A program made the position numbers and the translations under genes. Shown one piece after another: positions 7,396 to 55,292 of a stretch of DNA of 64,000 nt; positions within the stretch are counted from its first letter, which is position 1; the number at the start of each line of letters is the position of its first letter. The stretch covers positions 1 through 64,000 of the forward strand of contig NZ_PDWV01000005.1 in assembly GCF_010093385.1 (NCBI RefSeq). The letters run 5' to 3'. The DNA is from Pseudoxanthomonas mexicana. Its GTDB lineage: Bacteria > Pseudomonadota > Gammaproteobacteria > Xanthomonadales > Xanthomonadaceae. The notes below the pieces were generated by a model. That model did no database searches. It saw only the letters and a program-made list of their open reading frames with translations, and had not been told where the DNA came from.

Positions 7396-7409
7396 GGCGG
7401 TCCTCGGGT

Positions 7410-8294
7410 TCAGGCGGGGTGCCAGCGTACCTCGATCCGGTTGCGGCCCTTGTGCTTGGCGGCATACAGGGCTTCGTCGGCCAGGCGCACCAGGGTGTCG
7501 TAGGGCGCATGGCGGTCGGCGGTGAACGACATGCCCAGGCTCACGGTGACGCGGAAACCGGTGCCGATCGGCGCGAATTCCAGCGCCATCACCTGCTGGC
7601 GGATGCGCTCGGCCAGCGCATGTGCGGCATCGGCCTGGGTGTCGCGCAGCACCAGCATGAACTCCTCGCCGCCCAGCCGCGCGAACAGGTCGTCGCTGCG
7701 GATGCACCCGCGCACCACGTCCGAGAACCGCTGCAGCACCAGATCGCCGGCCTCGTGCCCATGGTCGTCGTTGACCGTCTTGAAGTGGTCCAGGTCCAGC
7801 GCGATGACCGCCAGCCCGTGCTCGGCCGCGCGCCACGCACCTTGCGACTGCAGCTCGTTGTCCAGGCCGCGGCGGTTCAGCGCGCCGGTCAGCGGGTCGA
7901 AGAGCGCGCCGCGCCGCAAGGGTTCGGCGGCACGGAAGCTGGCCAGCATCAGCATGCAGAAGTTGAGCAGGTACCAGATCGAGAGATCCAGGTTCACCCA
8001 GATCGGATTGGGCCCGTACGTTCCGGTCAATGCCGCCAGCAGGTCGCTGCCGTACAGCCACAGCGGCACCAGGCAGCCGCCGATCATCAGGCGCGCAGGG
8101 ACATGGTCGGGCGCCCGCCGAAGCACCAGCAGGTGGCCGATCATCACCACCAGCACGATCACTTCGGTGGCGCTCATCGCCGCGCCCTGCGCATCCACCG
8201 TGCCGCGCAGCACCCAGCCGCGCAGCACCCAGCCGACCAGCGAGAATTGCGATGCACACCGGCAGCAGCGCGCGTTCGCACCGCGAGAGCGCAC
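7410..8294 (-). CDS. GGDEF domain protein, probable diguanylate cyclase, disturbed 5' end
   Basis: The C-terminal 160 residues form a GGDEF domain with the active-site motif GGEEF at residues 208-212 and the D-x-x-x-F-K substrate loop (DLDHFKTVNDDHGH), so it should make cyclic di-GMP. No RxxD inhibitory site stands out before the active loop. The N-terminal part has at least three membrane segments. The beginning is uncertain: a 15-bp tandem duplication gives WVLRGWVLRG, and an upstream minus-strand frame from about 8304 (ALLPVCIAI) looks like the missing first helix in another frame. The gene abuts transposase debris, so the 5' end may be damaged. Confidence 0.8.
   Translation of the reverse strand: MRSRGANARCCRCASQFSLVGWVLRGWVLRGTVDAQGAAMSATEVIVLVVMIGHLLVLRRAPDHVPARLMIGGCLVPLWLYGSDLLAALTGTYGPNPIWVNLDLSIWYLLNFCMLMLASFRAAEPLRRGALFDPLTGALNRRGLDNELQSQGAWRAAEHGLAVIALDLDHFKTVNDDHGHEAGDLVLQRFSDVVRGCIRSDDLFARLGGEEFMLVLRDTQADAAHALAERIRQQVMALEFAPIGTGFRVTVSLGMSFTADRHAPYDTLVRLADEALYAAKHKGRNRIEVRWHPA
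8203..8232. repeat. 15-bp perfect tandem duplication inside the GGDEF gene
   Basis: The unit ccgcgcagcacccag occurs twice without a gap (8203-8217 and 8218-8232). In the minus-strand protein it duplicates the pentapeptide WVLRG without changing the frame. Confidence 0.85.
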
Positions 8295-8323
8295 GCTGCT
8301 GCACGAACTGGATGATCGACTAG

Positions 8324-8560
8324 GCCAGTCCCTCCAGGCCCGCCCTGATCCACTTCGCCAAATGTCTCAAGCCTTACTGGCGCGGCATCCTGAGCCGGGT
8401 ACGCTGGCCCCTGCATACCGGGCTGCTCGAGGGCATCAACAACAAGATCAGGGTCATCAAGCGCATCGCCTACGGCTTCCGCGATCACGCCTATTTCTTC
8501 CTCAAGATCCGGGCGTCCCTCCCCGGAGTTGGGAGATCAACCATTATTTATGCCAGATAG
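8324..8560 (+). pseudogene. C-terminal remnant of an ISL3-family transposase
   Basis: The plus-strand frame after the TAG at 8321 encodes about 78 residues, including WPLHTGLLEGINNKI, VIKRIAYGFRDHAYFFLKIRA and FAKCLKPYWRG. This is the conserved C-terminal end of ISL3-family DDE transposases, containing the final catalytic Glu region. The rest of the transposase is missing upstream, where the GGDEF gene begins, so it is a fragment. An IS5-family element lies immediately downstream. Confidence 0.7.
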
Positions 8561-8579
8561 TTGCGGGACGGGACACTAG

Positions 8580-8598
8580 GGAAGGTCTGAACAACACG
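8580..8598 (+). repeat. Left inverted repeat of the IS5-family element
   Basis: ggaaggtctgaacaacacg; it matches the complement of the right end except for g versus a at position 6. Confidence 0.9.
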
Positions 8599-8643
8599 CC
8601 ATCTGTCGGCGACAATACCGCCTCACCTCCGGGATGACTTCTG

Positions 8644-9624
8644 ATGCAGCTGACGTTCGGGGACGCCGAAGATCTTGGGCAACGCAAGCAGACGCGGCGG
8701 GAGGTGTTACTGGCGGAGATGGAGCAGGTAGTGCCGTGGAAGGCGCTGTTGTCGCTGATCGAGCCGCATTATCCGAAGCTGGGGCGTCCCGGCCGGCAGC
8801 CATACGCGTTGTCCACGATGCTGCGCATCCGCTTCCTGCAGCAGTGGTACGCGCTCAGCGACCCGGCGATGGAAGCGGCGTTGTACGACACGCCGGTGAT
8901 GCGCCGGTTTGCGGGGATCGGCGGGCTGGATGGTATTCCCGACGAGACCACGATCCTCAACTTCCTTCGCCTGCTGGAGATGCATGGCCTGGCGGCCAAG
9001 CTGCTGGCGAAGGTCAATGCGCACCTGCAGCGCGAGGGTATGAGCCTGCGCAGCGGCACGATCGTGGATGCCACGATCATCGCCGCGCCCAGATCGACCA
9101 AGAACCGGGATGGCGAGCGGGATCCTGCGATGCACCAGACGAAGAAGGCCAACCAGTGGCACTTCGGGATGAAGGCGCACATCGGTGTGGACGATGCGTC
9201 CGGGCTGGTGCATCACGTGGGATGCACGGCGGCGAACGTGGCCGACGTGACCCAGGTGCACAAGCTGCTGCACGGCAAGAAAGCCACGATCTGCGGCGAC
9301 AGCGGCTACACGGGCGCGGACAGGCGCGAGGAGTTGCAGCACATGGACGCCGGCTTCTGGATCGCGGAGAAACCATCGAAGCTGCGCGCGATGAAGAACA
9401 AGCGGGATCGTCGCCATGCCGCGCGCTGGGAGCACTGCAAGGCCAGCCTGCGGGCGAAGGTGGAGCACCCGATCCGGGTGATCAAGCGGCAGTTCGGCTA
9501 CGTCAAGGGGCGCTATCGCGGTCTTGCGAAGAACACAGCGCAAGTACAAACCCTGTTCGCCGTGTCGAATCTGTGGATGGCGCGCCGGCAATTGCTGCCG
9601 GCGACGGGATCAGTGCGCCTGTAA
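8644..9624 (+). CDS. IS5-family DDE transposase
   Basis: A 326-residue transposase that cuts and joins the ends of the surrounding element. The catalytic triad is intact: D142 in GTIVDATII, D219 in ICGDSGYTG and E274 in KVEHPIRVIKRQFG. The N-terminal region carries the IS5 DUF772 signature (PGRQPYALSTMLRIRFLQQW, seen at about residues 47-68). The ATG at 8644 is the first in frame. It is a single gene without a programmed frameshift, as expected for the IS5 group. Confidence 0.95.
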   Translation: MQLTFGDAEDLGQRKQTRREVLLAEMEQVVPWKALLSLIEPHYPKLGRPGRQPYALSTMLRIRFLQQWYALSDPAMEAALYDTPVMRRFAGIGGLDGIPDETTILNFLRLLEMHGLAAKLLAKVNAHLQREGMSLRSGTIVDATIIAAPRSTKNRDGERDPAMHQTKKANQWHFGMKAHIGVDDASGLVHHVGCTAANVADVTQVHKLLHGKKATICGDSGYTGADRREELQHMDAGFWIAEKPSKLRAMKNKRDRRHAARWEHCKASLRAKVEHPIRVIKRQFGYVKGRYRGLAKNTAQVQTLFAVSNLWMARRQLLPATGSVRL

Positions 9625-9719
9625 GGCGGGGAAACCCCCCAAGCAGCGCCGGAAACAGCGCGTAAACGCGGTGAACGAAGCTAAAAACTGCTCTGTGGCC
9701 CGGAATTGAAGATTCGGGG

Positions 9720-9738
9720 CGTGTTGTTCAGATCTTCC
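9720..9738 (-). repeat. Right inverted repeat of the IS5-family element
   Basis: Read on the minus strand this is ggaagatctgaacaacacg, 18 of 19 identical to the left end. Confidence 0.9.
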
Positions 9739-9742
9739 CTAG

Positions 9743-10033
9743 ATCATAGCGCGTATGGTTCAGGGTATGAGAGCGGGGTTTCTGCAGACTTTTTGCCACA
9801 TGAGGGCCTGCAAGTAATGCCGCGGCGATGATCAGGTAGCGCCAATCCGCCGCGATCACCGCGTGCCCTAGGAAAGGTCGTCGTGCGAGCCGCAACTATG
9901 ATCTCATGACCGCCAAAGAGGGCCGTTAGAACCCGGCTTGCATGTGGACGGTGTGTGCCTACAGACCAAACCAACAGCGTCAATGGTGCAGTGAAACGGC
10001 CCCTGATGTTGTGCCTTTCCAGCTACCTGCTAT
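9743..10033. other. Intergenic stretch without a recognisable gene
   Basis: The 291 bases between the IS5 element and the outer membrane protein gene have lower GC than the surroundings. They hold only short open frames without a recognisable protein. This may be leftover flank of the ISL3 element, but no ISL3 terminal repeat is visible. Confidence 0.5.
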
Positions 10034-10840
10034 TCAGAACGCCAGTGTCACGCCCGCGACCGGGCCCTTGAACCGCTGGTCCAGTCCCAGCACGCTATCG
10101 CTGCCTGCCGTGCTTACATCCAGCTTGAACCAGTCGTAGCCAGCGAACAGGCCGAAGTTCCTAGTGAAGCGGTATTCCACCACAGCATTGGCGCGGCTGA
10201 TGTCGCCGTCGTAGTCGCCGAAATCGCCCCAGCCTGCGTCCATGTACTGTGCCTGCAGGTTGACCAGCCACTTCTCGCCCGGGGTGAAGGTGACGCGTGC
10301 GCCCACGACGGGTGCGAAACCGTCTTCGCTGGCGCGACCGTCATAGACGTTCTCGCCGGCTTCGGCGCGAAGGCCGCCTTCCAACTTGGCCCATTGTGCG
10401 CCGATCTGCAGGCCTACGCTGACCGCATCCGACTGCATGATCGAGAAGTCGTACAACAGGCTGGCGAGTTCGAAGTTGGCTTCCGCGCGCGCGAAACCGC
10501 CGGCCGGAATGGTCACGTCGTCGTAGGACAGGTCTTCGCCGAGAGTCACTTCGCGATCCTTGTCATACTTGAAGTAATCGAAGATCAAGCGGTTGCGGTC
10601 GCTGAAGCGGAATACGCCGTCGACACGCGGTACGACCTCGCTGCCGAGGTCGAAGTCCTGCGAGAACTGCAGGTCTTCGCCCTGGAAAACGGTACTGGCA
10701 TAGAATTCACTTGGGGTATCCGCGTCCATCGCACCCAGTCGAAGGGTGAAGCGATCATCGTTGTCTGCGGCATGGGCAAAGGGGGCGGCGAGGACCGACG
10801 CAAGTGCGCCGGCAAGTGTCAGCGGGGCCACATATTTCAT
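10034..10840 (-). CDS. Outer membrane beta-barrel protein of unknown ligand
   Basis: A 268-residue protein with a clear signal peptide (cut after AHA-AD at about residue 24). An alternating hydrophobic pattern rich in Asp, Tyr and Phe continues to a C-terminal phenylalanine (GVTLAF), typical of an 8- to 12-strand outer membrane barrel. Motifs such as NRLIFDYFKYDKD, NLQAQYMDAGWGDFGDYDGD and RFTRNFGLFAGYDWF resemble xanthomonad OmpA/OmpW-like barrels without a peptidoglycan-binding tail. AAGGAG lies 11 bases before the ATG. It is flanked by transposon debris on both sides. Confidence 0.75.
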   Translation of the reverse strand: MKYVAPLTLAGALASVLAAPFAHAADNDDRFTLRLGAMDADTPSEFYASTVFQGEDLQFSQDFDLGSEVVPRVDGVFRFSDRNRLIFDYFKYDKDREVTLGEDLSYDDVTIPAGGFARAEANFELASLLYDFSIMQSDAVSVGLQIGAQWAKLEGGLRAEAGENVYDGRASEDGFAPVVGARVTFTPGEKWLVNLQAQYMDAGWGDFGDYDGDISRANAVVEYRFTRNFGLFAGYDWFKLDVSTAGSDSVLGLDQRFKGPVAGVTLAF

Positions 10841-10982
10841 ATCGAGGTTGTCTCCTTGTGGGGGGGCGGAGTCTTTCGCCCGCGGTCATACTTGCTGGAT
10901 GGGGCGTCAAGGAAGTGTGAATAGTGCGACGGTTGGACTTGCTGCGCACTGATGCGATGATATCGCCACCCTGCGGTCGATC

Positions 10983-11117
10983 ATGACGCTAGGTATTCGC
11001 CGGAACGACGCCCCGGCCTTCAAATCCAAAGTGGCCTTGGCCGCGAACAAGGACGAGCACGAGTTGGCCGAGCGCTTCGACATCGATCCGAGGCAGATTG
11101 CTTCATGGGAAGATCAG
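10983..11117 (+). pseudogene. Remnant of IS3-family orfA (transposase helix-turn-helix)
   Basis: About 45 residues starting at the ATG at 10983 match the beginning of IS3-family OrfA: RRNDAPAFKSKVALAA, then AERFDIDPRQIASWEDQ, corresponding to the usual AELAEQFDVHPNQITEWKRQ. After this the similarity stops and the frame runs into the 5' region of the lipase gene. No orfB is present, so only the first third of orfA survives. Confidence 0.72.
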
Positions 11118-11188
11118 CGGCGACCGTGCGCGGCTCCCGCAGGCGATCCGCCACAGCGCCCCCGGCATCGCGCCACGGAAGCCCCCGA

Positions 11189-13168
11189 ATGAGCACCAGT
11201 GCAGCCACCACCCGAACCGGATCGCGGCGCTGGCGTGCGCTGCCGGCCTTGCTGCTGGCCTGCGTCCTGCTGACCGGCGGCTGCGCGATGGTCGAGGTCA
11301 AGTCGCTGGGGCCGGGTGAGTACATCGCGATGAAGCGCGGCGACATCCTGACCACGGGCAGGCTCAGCGCCGCCACCCAGGATACCGTGCGGGTTGCCGG
11401 GCTCGACGGCAAGGGGCCGTGCGCCACGCCAGCACAGGCCTGCCTGGAGGCGCTTGCCGGCACCGAGGGCATCGACCCCGAGCGCCGCCTGGCTGCCTTG
11501 ACCGAACTGCGGTTGCAGCAGGTGATGGAGATCGCCTCCCGGGAAGGCGAGCCGATGTCCGACCTGCAACTGGATGCCTGGCTGGAGGTCGGCCGGCACG
11601 CCTATGCCTATCTGTTCTTCAGCGGACGCGCGCCCGGCGAACGCGCCTTCGAGGATCGCCAGACCCAGGTCCGCGACTACTACAACTACGCCATCCAGCA
11701 GGCGACGATCGGGCTGTTTCAGCGCCGGGACGAACACGCCGACCCGTCCGGCATCGGCTACACGACGCACGCGGCCGGCTGGACCATCCGCATCGACCTG
11801 TCCCGCGTGCGCCTGCCAGAAGGCCTGACCATGCCCCATGAGGTGGTCCCGGCCGCGTCGCTGGCCTTTACCGGGCTGCGCAGCACATACCGCCGCGACG
11901 GTTTCGGCGCCGAGGTGGTGGCTGTCATGGAGGACGACCCGGCGACGGCCGTCACGGAAGCTCCGCCGCCGGGAACAGAGCGTAGCCCGCGCAGGAAGGC
12001 CTACAGCGAGATGACGTCGCCTGCGCTGACCGTGCTGATCCGCTACGTCGGCGACGATCTCGACCAGGTCCTCGACACGCGCGAGATCGTGCTCAGCGCG
12101 TACGACCCTTACCGCGACGCGGCCACCGAACTGCACGGACAGAAGATGCCGCTGGCCGCCAACTACACCGCCGGGTACGGCCTGTGGCTGGCGCGCTCCG
12201 ACTTCGCCACACAATCCCTGCACACCGTGCTTGGGCGGGAACAGGGTATCGACCGGCCGCACCTGTACCTGATGCAGCCGTATGACCCGCAGCGCCGCAT
12301 CATCCTGATGGTGCACGGACTGGCGAGCAGCCCGGAGGCTTGGGTGAACGTCGCCAACGAGATCCTCGGCGACGAGACCCTACGCCAGAACTTCCAAGTC
12401 TGGCAGGTCTACTACCCGACCAACCTGCCGATCGCCTACAACCAGTCCGCTATCCGCCGGATCATGACCGAAACGCTGCAACACTTCGATCCGGACGGCA
12501 GCGATACGGCCTCGCGCGGCATCGTGCTGATCGGACACAGCATGGGTGGCGTGCTGTCGCGGTTGCTGGTGTCCTCATCGGGGGACCGCCTGTGGAACTG
12601 GCTGCTGGAACACCGCGACCTCGACGACGGCCGCCTGGCGCGGATCCGCGGCCGGCTGGAGCCGATGCTGCGATTCGAGCCCTTCCCCGGCGTCGAACGC
12701 GCGATCTTCATCGCGGCCCCCCACCGCGGCACGAAGGTGGCCGGCAACCTGCTGGGGCGCTGGATCTCACGGCTGGTGCGGCTGCCGCTCACCGTGCTCG
12801 CAGGTTTCGAGGACGTCCTCCACACGCTGGCCGACAGCGACGACGACCGCCCCGCCGCCCCGCCAAACAGCATCGACAACCTCAGCGAAACCGATCCCTT
12901 CATCCAGGTCGCAGCTGACCTGCCCATCTCGCCGCGGGTGCGTTACCACTCGATCATCGCCCAGAATAATCCGGATACCCCGCTGCCGGCCTCCGACGAC
13001 GGGCTGGTGCCCTATCGCAGCGCGCACCTGCCCGGCGCGGCGTCGGAGAAAGTGATCGTATCCGGGCACAGCGTGCAGGAAGCCCCCGAAGCCATCCTCG
13101 AGATCCGGCGCATCCTGCACGAAGACCTCGATCAGCGCGGCCGGCTACCTCGCAAAGTGGCTCAGTGA
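11189..13168 (+). CDS. Large lipoprotein with C-terminal alpha/beta-hydrolase (lipase-like) domain
   Basis: A 659-residue predicted lipoprotein; the lipobox LLTGGC places the acylated cysteine at residue 32 from the ATG at 11189. The first ~370 residues match no family I recognise. The C-terminal half is an alpha/beta-hydrolase: the oxyanion strand MVHGLASSPEAW, nucleophile S451 in GHSMGG, acid D603 or D604 in SDDGLVPY, and H627 in VSGHSVQ. It should be a lipase or esterase anchored in the envelope. Similar xanthomonad proteins are annotated only as alpha/beta hydrolases. The gene sits between an IS3 remnant and a decayed gene, suggesting horizontally acquired surroundings. Confidence 0.8.
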   Translation: MSTSAATTRTGSRRWRALPALLLACVLLTGGCAMVEVKSLGPGEYIAMKRGDILTTGRLSAATQDTVRVAGLDGKGPCATPAQACLEALAGTEGIDPERRLAALTELRLQQVMEIASREGEPMSDLQLDAWLEVGRHAYAYLFFSGRAPGERAFEDRQTQVRDYYNYAIQQATIGLFQRRDEHADPSGIGYTTHAAGWTIRIDLSRVRLPEGLTMPHEVVPAASLAFTGLRSTYRRDGFGAEVVAVMEDDPATAVTEAPPPGTERSPRRKAYSEMTSPALTVLIRYVGDDLDQVLDTREIVLSAYDPYRDAATELHGQKMPLAANYTAGYGLWLARSDFATQSLHTVLGREQGIDRPHLYLMQPYDPQRRIILMVHGLASSPEAWVNVANEILGDETLRQNFQVWQVYYPTNLPIAYNQSAIRRIMTETLQHFDPDGSDTASRGIVLIGHSMGGVLSRLLVSSSGDRLWNWLLEHRDLDDGRLARIRGRLEPMLRFEPFPGVERAIFIAAPHRGTKVAGNLLGRWISRLVRLPLTVLAGFEDVLHTLADSDDDRPAAPPNSIDNLSETDPFIQVAADLPISPRVRYHSIIAQNNPDTPLPASDDGLVPYRSAHLPGAASEKVIVSGHSVQEAPEAILEIRRILHEDLDQRGRLPRKVAQ

Positions 13169-13562
13169 CAGGGAAGCTGCAATATGCGGCTGAATTCAGG
13201 TTGTGGGGTTGATTTCGCAAGAACTGCGAACTGGCGGTCTTGATGTCCTCGATCAGGGGGCGCCCGGCCCTTCCTTCCTCGCGCAGCAGTTCGGAGCGCG
13301 CGCGCTGATACGGCGCCACTCACTCGCGCCAGAACGAGTCCTTTCTGCGGCCATCGCCGTCGAGCGACAGAGCGAGCATGCACTGGATGTCGCGCATCAG
13401 CGGGTTGGTCGCGAGACTGTAGGAATCGTTGGCAAAATCCCAGCGAGGCGTATTGGCAATGGGCCACGCGCGCGGCCTATCAGTTCTGCGGGTGCGGGCA
13501 ACTGCGGTAGAAACTTGCTGACAATGGTTTCGGAGGGATGTTCCTTGCTCTCGAAGTGGCAA
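13169..13562 (-). pseudogene. Decayed reverse-strand gene fragment of unknown family
   Basis: On the minus strand a coding-like frame reads through PRAWPIANTPRWDF, NDSYSLATNPLMRDIQCML, LSLDGDG and KDSFWRE, stops at TGA (13320-13322), then continues in the same frame as VAPYQRARSELLREEGR and LIEDIKTASSQFLRN. Third codon positions stay mostly G/C on both sides of the stop, as for a real gene. A TGG to TGA change would give the single stop. The upstream part may also be frameshifted, because another frame (MFKATICCHFESKEH) looks coding near 13580. I do not recognise the family. Confidence 0.4.
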
Positions 13563-13623
13563 CAGATGGTGGCTTTGAACACCTTGCAGGATGTCGAGGG
13601 GATGCTTCTGCGCTTGGACTATC

Positions 13624-13651
13624 CAAAGAAAAGCCCCGCCGGAGCGGGGCT
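13624..13651 (-). terminator. Intrinsic terminator after putA
   Basis: A perfect 8-bp stem, agccccgc (13632-13639) and gcggggct (13644-13651), with a 4-base loop. On the minus strand it is followed by TTTTCTTT. It lies 33 bp beyond the putA stop codon. Confidence 0.85.
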
Positions 13652-31635: not shown

Positions 31636-32082
31636 TCAGCCCGCCAGCTTCTTCTTGATCAGCGCGGACACCAGGCCCATGTCGGCCTGGCCGGCCAGGC
31701 GCGGCTTCAGCACGCCCATCAGCTTGCCCATGTCGGCCGGGCCGGACGCGCCGGTCTCGCCGATGGCGGCCTCGATGGCGGCCAGGATCCCGGCCTCGCC
31801 CAGCTTGGCTGGCAGGTAGGCGTCGATCCCCGCGATCTCGGCGCGCTCGACGGCGGCCAGGTCCTCGCGGTGGGCGGCTTCGTACTGGCTGACCGAATCC
31901 TTGCGCTGCTTGACCATCTTCTCCAGCACGGCCAGCACGGCGGCATCGTCCAGTTCCACGCGCTCGTCGACTTCCTTCTGCTTGATGGCGGCGTTGATCA
32001 GGCGGATGACGCCCAGGCGATCCTTCTCGCCGGCCTTCATCGCGGCCTTCATGTCATCGGTGAGCTGCTGTTTCAGGGACAT
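31636..32082 (-). CDS. GatB/YqeY domain protein
   Basis: A 148-residue cytoplasmic protein of the YqeY family, related to the tail domain of the GatB amidotransferase subunit. It has the usual start [20 protein letters not shown], the [16 protein letters not shown] segment, and the C-terminal [21 protein letters not shown] motif. GGAG lies seven bases before the ATG. It always follows rpsU in this group of bacteria. In this sequence the rpsU frame has no stop and runs into this gene in frame, so a 253-residue fusion is formally encoded. Confidence 0.9.
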
Positions 32083-32129
32083 GGGTGACTCCTGCGGAGG
32101 GTGGGGCGGCGCCCGCGGGCGCCAAAAAC

Positions 32130-32163
32130 ACAAAAAGCCGGCGACGCTTGCGCGTGCCGGCTT
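32130..32163 (-). terminator. Intrinsic terminator after rpsU, translated in this sequence
   Basis: On the minus strand an aagccggc/gccggctt stem with an inner acgc/gcgt extension is followed by a T-rich tract (TTTTTGTGTTTTTGG). It normally ends rpsU transcription or attenuates yqeY. Here it lies inside the open frame because rpsU lacks its stop. Confidence 0.8.
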
Positions 32164-32184
32164 CTCGCGAAGCGACGCGGCCCA

Positions 32185-32397
32185 GTACAGGCGCTGGCGC
32201 TTGGTGACGGCGCGCGAGCTGCGGCGCAGCTGGCGCTTCACCGCGGCGGCGGCCTTGCGCTTGCGCTCCTGGGTCGGCTTCTCGTAGAACTCGCGCTTGC
32301 GGGTTTCGGCCAGGACGCCGGCCTTTTCGCAGGTGCGCTTGAAGCGACGCAGCGCAAACTCAAACGGCTCGTTTTCGCGGACTTTGACGCTGGGCAT
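32185..32397 (-). CDS. rpsU: Small ribosomal subunit protein bS21, without its stop codon
   Basis: The 71 codons from 32397 encode a complete S21: [20 protein letters not shown] at the start, [15 protein letters not shown] in the middle and the canonical end RQRLY. S21 helps the 30S subunit bind mRNA during initiation. The codon after the final Tyr (32182-32184) is TGG instead of a stop, and the frame remains open for 34 more codons through the terminator hairpin and then into yqeY, ending at 31636. One base (TGA or TAG to TGG) would explain it. The end given here is the family end, not a stop codon. A strong promoter precedes it. Confidence 0.88.
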
Positions 32398-42076: not shown

Positions 42077-42092
42077 TCGACGGCAGTATGCC

Positions 42093-44428
42093 TCAGCGCG
42101 GCTGCAGCGTGATGCGGTCCAGCACCCACATCTGCGGCCGGGTGTCGCCGGTGAAGCGCACGCACAGGTCCTGCCTGCCGGCGGTGCCGGCGGGCAGCGG
42201 TGCGTCTAGGTCCAGGAATCCGTCCGCGCCCGGTGCCGCCGGCAGCGGCACGCTGGCCAGCGTGTGGCCCTTGCAGCCGCCTCCCAGGATTTCCAGCTCG
42301 CCCAGCGGCGACTTGGCCGGTTCGAACGTGCGGTGCGGCTCGTCGTGCGCCAGCTGGAAGTAGTACGGGATGCGTCCCGCACGCACCTTGATCGACGCGA
42401 TGCCGTCCAGGTCGGCCTGGTTCCACTGCCAGCAGGGGTAGAAGATCGTGGCATTGAAGATCGCGCGTTCGCTCTCGGCCGGGCCGTCGTCTTCCAGACG
42501 CAGCAACAGGCGGCCCGCATCGGGGCACACGGCCATCGCCTCGTCGGTGCGCGTGAGCAGTGCGGCGGGCGTCAGCTCGAACGTGGCGGCGGGCGCCAGG
42601 CGCGGCCCTCGGCGAAGGCCGCCGCACGCACGGTGACCGGCAGCTTCAGGTCGAGCGGCGATGCGAACGCCTTGGAAGTCGATGTCGGTTCACTGCCGTC
42701 GGTGGTGTAGTGCACCGGATAGCCGAGCGGATTCGACAGCGTGACCTTCACGGTGCCCGCCTTGCGGTCGTCCTCGGTCGCGATCATCGCTTCGAACGGC
42801 GTCTTCGCGTAGCCCAGGCCGATGGCGTCGTAGCGCTTCAGCTGCGTGGGCAGGCGGCGGGTGAAGTCGGCGAAGTCCTTCTTTGCCGCGGGCGTCCAGC
42901 CGGTTTCGGCGACCGCCGCCAGGCGCGGGAAGGCGTTGTGCTGCAGGCGCGCGAACGTGCGCGTGTGCTCGGTCCACAGGTTGGCCTGCAGGCCGAGGAT
43001 GTGGTGGCGCTGGCTTTCCTCCAGCTCCGGCGGCACCGGCTCGAACGCGTAGACGTCCTGCAACGTGATCAGCGCGGGGCGACCCGGCGGCTCGTTCGGC
43101 GACGCCGTCTGCAGGTAGTCGAGGTAGGTCTTGTTCGACGGCGACATCACCACGTCATGGCCCTGGCGCGCGGCCTTCAGACCGCCTTCGATGCCGCGCC
43201 ACGACATGACCGTGGCTTCCGGCGGCAGCTTGGCTTCGAGGATCTCGTCCCAGCCGATCAGGCGCTTGCCGTGTCCGGCGAGATACTTCTCCAGCCGCTC
43301 GACCAGATACCCCTGCAGATCCATTTCGGTCTTCGCGCCGACCTGGCGCATGCGGGCCTGCTCGCGTGCCGACGCTTCCCACTGGTCCTTCACCGCTTCG
43401 TCGCCGCCGATGTGCACGTAAGTGCCCGGGAACAACTGCACCACTTCGCCCAGCACGTTCTCCAGGAACGTGATCGTCGGTTCTTCCACGTTGACCAGGT
43501 TGGGGAACACGCCCCACTCGCTCGACGGCACCAGCGGCGTGTCGATGGAGCCGAGCTCCGGATACGCAGCGATCGCCGCCGTCGCGTGGCCCGGCACATT
43601 GATCTCGGGCACGACGGTGATGTGGCGTTCGGCGGCGTACTTCACCACGTCGCGGATCTGGTCCTGCGTGTAGAAACCGCAATAAGGGCGCGGCTCACCG
43701 GTTTTCGGGTCCTTGCCGCCATCGCCGGCGGGAATGCGGCAGCCGCCGATTTCGGTGAGCTTCGGGTACTGCTTGATCTCAATGCGCCAGCCCTGGTCGT
43801 CGGTCAGGTGCCAGTGCAGGGTGTTGAGCTTGTGCAGGGCCATCGCGTCGATGATCTTCTTCACCTCGTCGACGGTCTGGAAATGGCGCGCGGGGTCCAG
43901 CATGAAGCCGCGCCAGGCGAAGCGCGGTGCGTCTTCGATATGGAGCGCCGGCAGCGTGACGCCGCCCTTGTCGCCCTGGGTGGCGAGCTGCCACAGCGTC
44001 ACCGCACCGTAGAACAGACCGCGCTCGTCGCGTGCCTTCACCGTGACGCCATCGGGCGTGATGTCCAGCGTGTAGGCCTCCGGCGAGGCCGCAGCCGCAT
44101 CGCCCGTTTCCAGTACGAAGCGGATGACGTTCTTGGCATCGGCGTCCGTGATCGCCAGTGCAGGCCCGCCCGCCGACGTAAGGTAGGCGGCGAACTGGCC
44201 GGCGACGCGCGTCGCCGCGGCGCCGGTGGCGGACACGCGGGTGTCGGCATTGATGACGAACGATCCTTCGCCCGCCTGCAGCGTGGCGGGCGCGGGAATC
44301 AGAGCCGGCGTGATGGGCGCCGAAGCGGTCGCGGCGCCGGCATCGCTGCCCGTCCTGGCACAGCCGGCCAGGACCAGCAGGGTGATGGCCATGCCGGCCA
44401 GGGCGCGACGGACGAAGGGTCGTTTCAT
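42093..44428 (-). pseudogene. GH20 beta-N-acetylhexosaminidase lipoprotein with a 3' frameshift
   Basis: From the ATG at 44428 (GAGGA five bases upstream) the protein has a lipobox (LLVLAGC), a GH20b domain, and the GH20 barrel with the catalytic pair D343-E344 in HIGGDEAVKDQWE and the GWDEILE and MSWRGIEGG motifs. It removes terminal GlcNAc from chitin oligomers. The frame ends at 42572 as GRAWRPPPRSS, but the natural C-terminus continues one frame over as LAPAATFELTPAALLTRTDEAM and on to 42093 (WVLDRITLQPR). One missing base near 42595-42602 explains it. The catalytic domain is complete, so the truncated product might still work. Confidence 0.87.
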
Positions 44429-44462
44429 CGGAATCCTCGTGGGCGAACGAGCGGAGAGTGCC

Positions 44463-44496
44463 AAAAAAAAGCGGGCCCGGACAAATCCAGGCCCGC
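44463..44496 (-). terminator. Intrinsic terminator of the TonB receptor gene
   Basis: On the minus strand GCGGGCCTGG and CCGGGCCCGC form a 10-bp stem (one G-T pair) with a 6-base loop, followed by eight T. It separates the receptor gene from the downstream hexosaminidase gene, so the two are probably transcribed separately. Confidence 0.9.
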
Positions 44497-53603: not shown

Positions 53604-53676
53604 AGGCCCGGCGACCGTCACGCTTTTCTTCGCCGACCCGGCGTACAACGACGGTCACCGTCGCCGGAGCGTCCGC

Positions 53677-54953
53677 ATGAAGAGGCCGTTGCTGCTTGCC
53701 TGTCTGGTGTGCCTGGCGTCCTGCCAGCGCGCGACGGTCGACGAGAACGGTGCGCGGGTCGTGCTGGCGTCCAGCCCCCAGCGCGTCGCCACAACCGCGG
53801 GAATTCCCGCCTCGCAGGGGACGCTGCCCCAGGCAACGGCCACGCTTGCCCCGGTATCCGGCGCAGGGCGCACTGCGGGCGGCATGTCGCCACCCCGCGT
53901 CGTGCCCGACCCCCCGTTCACCAGCACGCCCGTCGCCACGTTCAATGAGCCCTGGGCGATGACGTTCCTGCCCGACGGCCGCCTGCTGGTCACCGAAAAG
54001 CGCGGCACCCTGCGCCTGGCCCATGTCGCCACCGGCCAGGTAGGCCAGGTCACCGGTGTGCCGGCCGTCGCCTACGGGGGCCAGGGTGGTCTCGGCGACG
54101 TGCTGCTGCATCCGCGCTTCGCCGACAACCGCCTGGTCTACCTGAGCTATGCCGAAGCGGGCAGCGGCAGCACGCGCGGCGCCGCGGTGGCGCGCGCCAC
54201 GCTGACGCTGGATGCGAGCGGAAACGGCGGCAGCCTGTCCAACCTGCAGGTGATCTGGCGGCAGCTGCCCAAGGTCAACGGGGAAAGCCACTACGGCCAC
54301 CGGCTGGCATTCGGTGCGGACGGCAAGTTGTGGATCACCTCCAGCGACCGCCAGGCGATGACGCCGGCGCAGGACCTGCAATCCGCGCTCGGCAAGCTGA
54401 TCCGCCTCAACGACGACGGCAGCGTGCCGCCGGACAATCCGTTCGCCGCGCAGGGCGGCATCGCGGCGCAGGTGTGGACGCTGGGTCACCGCAACCTGCT
54501 GGGCATCGCGTTCGACAATGCGGGACGGCTGTGGACGCACGAGATGGGGCCGGCCGGCGGCGACGAACTGAACCTCATCGAGCGCGGCAGCAACTACGGC
54601 TGGCCGGTGGTCTCCAACGGCGACCACTACGACGGCACGCCGATCCCCGACCATGCCACGCGGCCGGAGTTCAATGCGCCCGAAGCCTGGTGGACGCCGG
54701 TGATCGCGCCGGCGGGCTTCGTCATCTACTCGGGTAACCTCTTCCCGTGGTACCGGGTCAAGGGCTTCATCGGCGGTCTGGCATCGCAGGCGCTGATCGA
54801 GATCGAATTCAACGGCACGCAGGCGCGCGAGGTGCGGCGCTACCCGATGGGACGGCGCATCCGCGACGCGAGCAGGGGCCCGACGGCGCGCTGTGGCTGC
54901 TGGAGGACGGCGGCGGCGGACGATTGTTGAAATTGACGCCCAACCGCAGCTGA
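53677..54953 (+). pseudogene. Soluble aldose sugar dehydrogenase (PQQ) lipoprotein with a 3' frameshift
   Basis: A lipoprotein (lipobox LVCLASC) with a six-bladed PQQ-dependent sugar dehydrogenase domain of the YliI/Asd type: [63 protein letters not shown] and [22 protein letters not shown] in parts. It oxidises aldoses in the periplasm. The first frame ends at 54930 with [14 protein letters not shown], but the expected end [21 protein letters not shown] runs one frame over to 54953. One base appears missing near 54866-54871. The catalytic domain is nearly whole. Confidence 0.85.
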
Positions 54954-55292
54954 TCAGCGCGCGGTTCCTGCCTCGCGCTGCTGGCGCGAGTGGCGGATGT
55001 CCAGGTACAGGCTGTAGGCGGCGGTGAACGCCGGCAGCAGGTTCTGCAGCACGCCCACCGCGTCCTGCTTGGACGAGAACAGGAAGTAGCTCAGCGCCAT
55101 CAGGCTGCCCGCCAGGCTCATGTACCAGAACAGGCGGGGGATCACCGGACGGCGCGCGCGCCGCGAAGCGACGAACTGCACCAGCCAGCGGCCGCCGAAC
55201 ATCGCCGCGCCGGTCAGGCCGATCAGCTTCCACGGCGTCATGTGCAGGCCGGTCCAGCCCAGCCAGACGATTTCCTGGTTCATCACGCTCAT
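54954..55292 (-). CDS. Lipid-A-disaccharide synthase N-terminal (LABN) domain membrane protein
   Basis: A 112-residue protein with about three membrane helices. It matches the stand-alone LABN domain, seen at the N-terminus of some LpxB proteins: WKLIGLTGAAMFGGRWLVQF, RPVIPRLFWYMSLAGSLMALSYF and NLLPAFTAAYSLYLDIR. It always accompanies a GT2 enzyme and membrane glycosyltransferases, and probably helps flip or anchor a lipid-linked sugar. The start overlaps the GT2 stop codon by four bases. Confidence 0.88.
   Translation of the reverse strand: MSVMNQEIVWLGWTGLHMTPWKLIGLTGAAMFGGRWLVQFVASRRARRPVIPRLFWYMSLAGSLMALSYFLFSSKQDAVGVLQNLLPAFTAAYSLYLDIRHSRQQREAGTAR

Follow-up and report, generated by a model that had tools for sequence, protein, structure and literature searches.

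A sense codon in place of the rpsU stop in a Pseudoxanthomonas mexicana draft assembly, very probably a base error

The question raised by this locus is whether ribosomal protein S21 of a Pseudoxanthomonas mexicana strain is really translated onward into the neighbouring gene, yqeY, or whether the assembled sequence is at fault. The window, that is, the whole 64,000-nucleotide stretch of contig NZ_PDWV01000005.1 that was analysed, carries on its minus strand an uninterrupted frame of 253 residues, running from the ATG at 32397-32395 to the TGA at 31638-31636. The first 71 codons (32185-32397) are rpsU, assigned to bS21 by a PF01165 match (E 1.1e-22; 79.9 bits against a curated cut-off of 27), ending at Tyr71 (32187-32185) and followed at codon 72 (32184-32182) by TGG. 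A linker of 34 codons (32083-32184, minus strand), which from 32181 up to the yqeY start is the same as in G021, the nearest relative, then leads to yqeY (31636-32082, minus strand), whose own ATG at 32082-32080 is residue 106 of the open chain and stands in the same frame as rpsU; the 148-residue product matches PF09424 (E 1.8e-52; 177.7 bits against a curated cut-off of 27) and also solved YqeY chains. Translation of the frame bears out what the first-pass annotation had described, namely an S21 ending at residue 71 and then TGG, with exact coordinates, and 34 in-frame codons passing through a hairpin to the yqeY ATG to make one 253-residue chain. Most of the full-length gammaproteobacterial S21 relatives in the PDB list have 70-71 residues, and the assembled frame, with no stop after Tyr71, does not end near that length. 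One solved S21 in that list, PDB chain 7qg8_v, has 88 residues, with a match that extends no further than residue 62; it may have a real longer C-terminus, or the length may be a detail of the deposition. As for the hairpin, a 69-nt stretch of the linker folds at -42 kcal/mol (z -3.89), and a T-rich stretch then follows; this structure, at about 32129-32169 on the minus strand and starting 12 bases past codon 72, is probably the rpsU terminator and is absent from the output of a simple consensus terminator scan.

The assembly, a draft of 3.97 Mb in 115 contigs, is scored as 100% complete and 0.06% contaminated and contains a tmRNA gene. S21 has a single match in the genome, and a second copy that might spare the cell is thereby ruled out. 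When the genus was searched with the fused chain, 37 of 38 genomes matched, this one included, and the match of each of the 36 relatives had TGA within its aligned stretch. The first-pass annotation had proposed reading the codon after Tyr71 in related rpsU-yqeY loci; it is TGA in all 29 genus loci read, which are the best-matching loci of the 37 relatives searched. In 8 of these 29 loci, a sample that may be enriched in such cases, yqeY also lies in frame. An open frame past codon 72 is therefore ordinary, and codon 72 itself is the sole anomaly of the locus.

Across the family, 281 of 395 genomes have the S21 C-terminus followed by TRR, the ends being TGA or TAA among the matches listed, while a slightly wider pattern with TGG found one genome of the 395, the present one, in a test that bears on about 281 genomes, since 114 of the 395 miss the S21 C-terminal TRR pattern. 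A TGG pattern for S21 ending in KRQRLY, with CTG for Leu, gave 23 hits across one genome per species (84,980 species, a set from which this genome and very near ones may be excluded), with S21 upstream in none. The locus had no match in the viral contigs scanned; in a plasmid collection, 62 records matched, of which the listed ones were chromosome-sized, and this search was left out of the evidence. A stop loss common to relatives is ruled out, as no relative examined shares TGG. Likewise, an open frame common to relatives, as an established S21-YqeY fusion would have, was not found, with TGA in 29 of 29 loci and TGG in this genome alone. By these sequence comparisons, TGG at codon 72 is private to one draft assembly.

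The changes around the stop are unusual in their own right. G021 shares 91-95% DNA identity with the window over aligned pieces, and within 32418-31873 (546 bp) the two sequences differ at two positions only, 32210, which gives D63A, and 32182, which removes the stop. The D63A change lies 28 bases upstream of the stop change, so that both fall in the last rpsU codons; all 29 genus loci read keep Asp63, and S21 otherwise varies among these relatives at residue 57 alone, in three of them. In YqeY, the residues H71, G85, G98 and G108 (base changes at 31872, 31829, 31790 and 31760) were unseen in the 29 relatives. Taken together, rpsU and yqeY carry 6 nonsynonymous and 2 synonymous changes specific to this genome, whereas the remaining window genes counted, with the gene at 7404-8652 left out, have 276 and 567 (one-sided p 0.019). 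The derived bases were also tested for copying of a neighbouring base, and no effect was seen.

As a control for base errors, 35 genes (8308 codons) of the ribosomal and RNA polymerase region were compared between this genome, G021 and two further relatives, G007 and G012. Single-base changes were counted at codons identical in the other three genomes, with replacements scoring -1 or lower in BLOSUM62 taken as radical; fusA, only 0.886 identical to G021, was dropped before the counts here and in the window. In this genome there are 20 private replacements, of which 12 are radical, and 239 synonymous changes; the corresponding numbers are 9, 0 and 216 for G021, 25, 2 and 275 for G007, and 20, 2 and 291 for G012. 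The radical excess is significant against each of the three (p 0.0006, 0.005 and 0.005, respectively). Six control open reading frames had been trimmed of upstream extensions to the usual gene lengths, after changes were seen in non-coding extensions, and the radical counts for this genome, G021, G007 and G012 went from 15, 0, 2 and 7 untrimmed to 12, 0, 2 and 2 trimmed. Base errors would be expected to leave an excess of private radical changes in the highly conserved genes of an assembly, and such an excess was found here (12 versus 0, 2 and 2). Changes of the type A>C/T>G make up 8 of the control replacements here, compared with 0 in G021, 1 in G007 and 5 in G012. Of these 8, 6 stand in a GGT/ACC context, compared with 1338 of 11844 A/T sites (11%; p 5e-5), a result not fully independent of looking, since the context was first tried on the window genes and then on the control. 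Among these changes are V51G in S5 and T37P in L17; the four solved relatives compared for each protein have Val and Thr at these sites, respectively. The control sites also include V137G in L2 and T1181P in RpoC.

Loss of mutT gives a mutator type with A:T to C:G changes, and a mutator of this kind might conceivably lie behind the control changes; the changes to Gly in S5 and to Pro in L17, at positions that are widely kept, argue against such variation in a living strain. Two control-region genes show divergence of another kind. The fusA gene (contig C29 of the assembly, G000, about 46.5-48.7 kb, as placed from G021 spacing) has 109 nonsynonymous changes specific to this genome and is far more diverged from G021 than its neighbours at 0.886 identity, and was perhaps replaced through recombination. 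In rpsN, encoding S14 (L083, G000 C29:38177-38482), a block of changes around residues 34-46 relative to G021 and G007 has the look of genuine divergence, not of single miscalls.

The context of the rpsU base was compared with published miscall contexts. PMC3622629 gives GGT, GGC and inverted repeats as Illumina miscall contexts, and also states that GGC and GGT, as short motifs by themselves, predict error positions unreliably. The rpsU base that is changed comes, on the plus strand, directly after GGC and beside an inverted repeat, the hairpin. In the window genes, 4 of 13 changes in this genome had the GGT context, compared with 3 of 11 in G021, 0 of 17 in G007 and 0 of 26 in G012, so that this genome is not clearly above G021.

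Over the window genes counted, there is no substitution excess: this genome has 97 private replacements (41 radical) and 470 synonymous changes, and G021 has 117 (43 radical) and 389, with two genes (alignment starts 33469 and 55733) dropped from the count. Three window genes are shifted out of frame by one-base deletions found in this genome alone, the base being present in G021, G007 and G012. The deletions are at about 34.7 kb in a plus-strand gene from 33690, at about 42.6 kb in a minus-strand gene within 42087-44470, and at about 54.9 kb (54870) in a plus-strand gene within 53605-54959. The resulting premature stops fall at residue 343 versus 420, 630 versus 790 and 439 versus 447, respectively, of the G021 frames. 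These came from a survey that covered six of the seven genes whose alignments had gaps changing the frame, the gene with alignment start 19286 being left out. In the other three, the gap is in the first 90 alignment columns of the chosen reading frame and so may precede the true start; one of these early gaps reflects a base present in G021 alone. Each of the three frameshifts could be an error of the assembly or genuine damage to the gene; some may be real, but as a set they agree with an assembly that contains base errors. The window also holds, at about 8343-13625, a stretch of about 5 kb without a long G021 match at the same place, which is a strain-specific insertion or replacement.

Considering these observations, TGG is very probably a base error in the draft assembly, and the rpsU stop would then be intact in the living strain. 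This reading is favoured because relatives keep the stop and because other conserved genes of the same assembly carry implausible changes, and the three window frameshifts raise our confidence in it slightly. We infer that the codon-72 base is one of the assembly's errors, starting from what was observed directly: the privacy of TGG, the D63A change, and the control and frameshift signals. Several observations stand against a base error. The window is without an overall substitution excess; the stop change is A>G, unlike the commonest type in the control; G012 also has 5 A>C/T>G changes in 20 control replacements; and some control-region differences (fusA, rpsN) look like true sequence replacement. 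The single A to G substitution or miscall that the first-pass annotation had offered as its simplest alternative is nevertheless the reading that this comparative evidence favours. Its leading proposal, an S21 that either gains 34 residues or is fused to YqeY, is not supported, since no relative shares TGG, D63A lies 28 bases away, and the assembly also has context-specific radical changes and private frameshifts elsewhere. If an error, the locus would have the ordinary layout of the genus, a 71-residue S21 ending at TGA, a hairpin terminator 12 bases on, and yqeY translated from its own start. It would also be a case in which a genome scored as 100% complete and 0.06% contaminated can still hold base errors that resemble striking biology, and in which ribosomal-protein genes prove a useful control for them.

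A real and very recent stop loss in this strain is unlikely. In that case, with no stop 12 bases before the hairpin, ribosomes would enter the hairpin; termination might be weakened, with read-through transcripts yielding the 253-residue S21-YqeY in addition to YqeY from its own start, or transcripts would end at the hairpin without a stop and need tmRNA. The sequence does hold an open frame, the tmRNA gene is present, and the window as a whole has no substitution excess, all of which would agree with a real loss. A C-terminal extension also appears tolerable: in Francisella, PMC9578407 reports that C-terminally VSV-G-tagged bS21-2 restored what is lost in the absence of bS21-2, a sixfold rise of the yqeY transcript included. 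PMC11445130 describes a Halalkalibacterium halodurans mutant with an early stop in rpsU, and also a yqeY deletion in that species. Given these two sets of results, a tolerated S21 extension is not absurd, only unsupported. What speaks against a real loss is that it is private to one draft genome, affects the only S21 copy, adjoins D63A, and occurs in an assembly whose control genes bear an error signature and whose window genes include private frameshifts. The fuller version of this reading, in which all S21 would be extended or fused to YqeY beside the 3' end of 16S rRNA, tmRNA would clear the non-stop products, and D63A and the private YqeY changes would be adjustments, is rather improbable. 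Among literature titles, none was found on natural S21 stop loss or S21-YqeY fusion, which is not proof of absence. If true, the strain would offer a natural test of what cargo the S21 C-terminus can bear close to the anti-Shine-Dalgarno end of 16S rRNA, and of how a cell lives when the mRNA for one of its ribosomal proteins has no stop.

It is highly improbable that TGA is leaky across the group, yielding some S21-YqeY, and that this genome merely swapped a leaky stop for a sense codon: 8 of 29 relatives do have yqeY in frame with TGA alone between, but the linker length modulo three is 0, 1 and 2 in 8, 14 and 7 loci, as by chance, with 4, 6 and 7 distinct lengths in the respective classes, and G007 shares the hairpin with this genome but has a remaining spacer of different length and sequence. 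Clade-wide TGA readthrough is ruled out by this chance-like distribution of linker frames over the 29 loci read, in which no sign of conserved readthrough was found.

Compared with known systems, a real stop loss would resemble the arfA mRNA of Escherichia coli, which PMC10107115 describes as lacking a stop and being repressed by trans-translation. The likeness, drawn by analogy, would be a hairpin that lies within an open frame and ahead of its first stop, leaving a shortened transcript with none; the hairpin here is terminator-like by its fold and unlisted by the consensus scan. The present arrangement differs from arfA in that it is not conserved in relatives, signs of regulation are absent, and S21 is no rescue factor. 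The context-specific miscalls described in PMC3622629, for which strand bias in the reads is the usual test, offer a second comparison, since the control genes of this assembly have a GGT/ACC excess and the rpsU change follows GGC; those contexts are Illumina's, which may not be the platform of this assembly. A third comparison is with the ordinary rpsU-terminator-yqeY order of the genus itself, which this locus matches in gene order, hairpin and yqeY start, with a spacer equal to that of G021, and from which it differs by TGG for TGA at codon 72, plus D63A.
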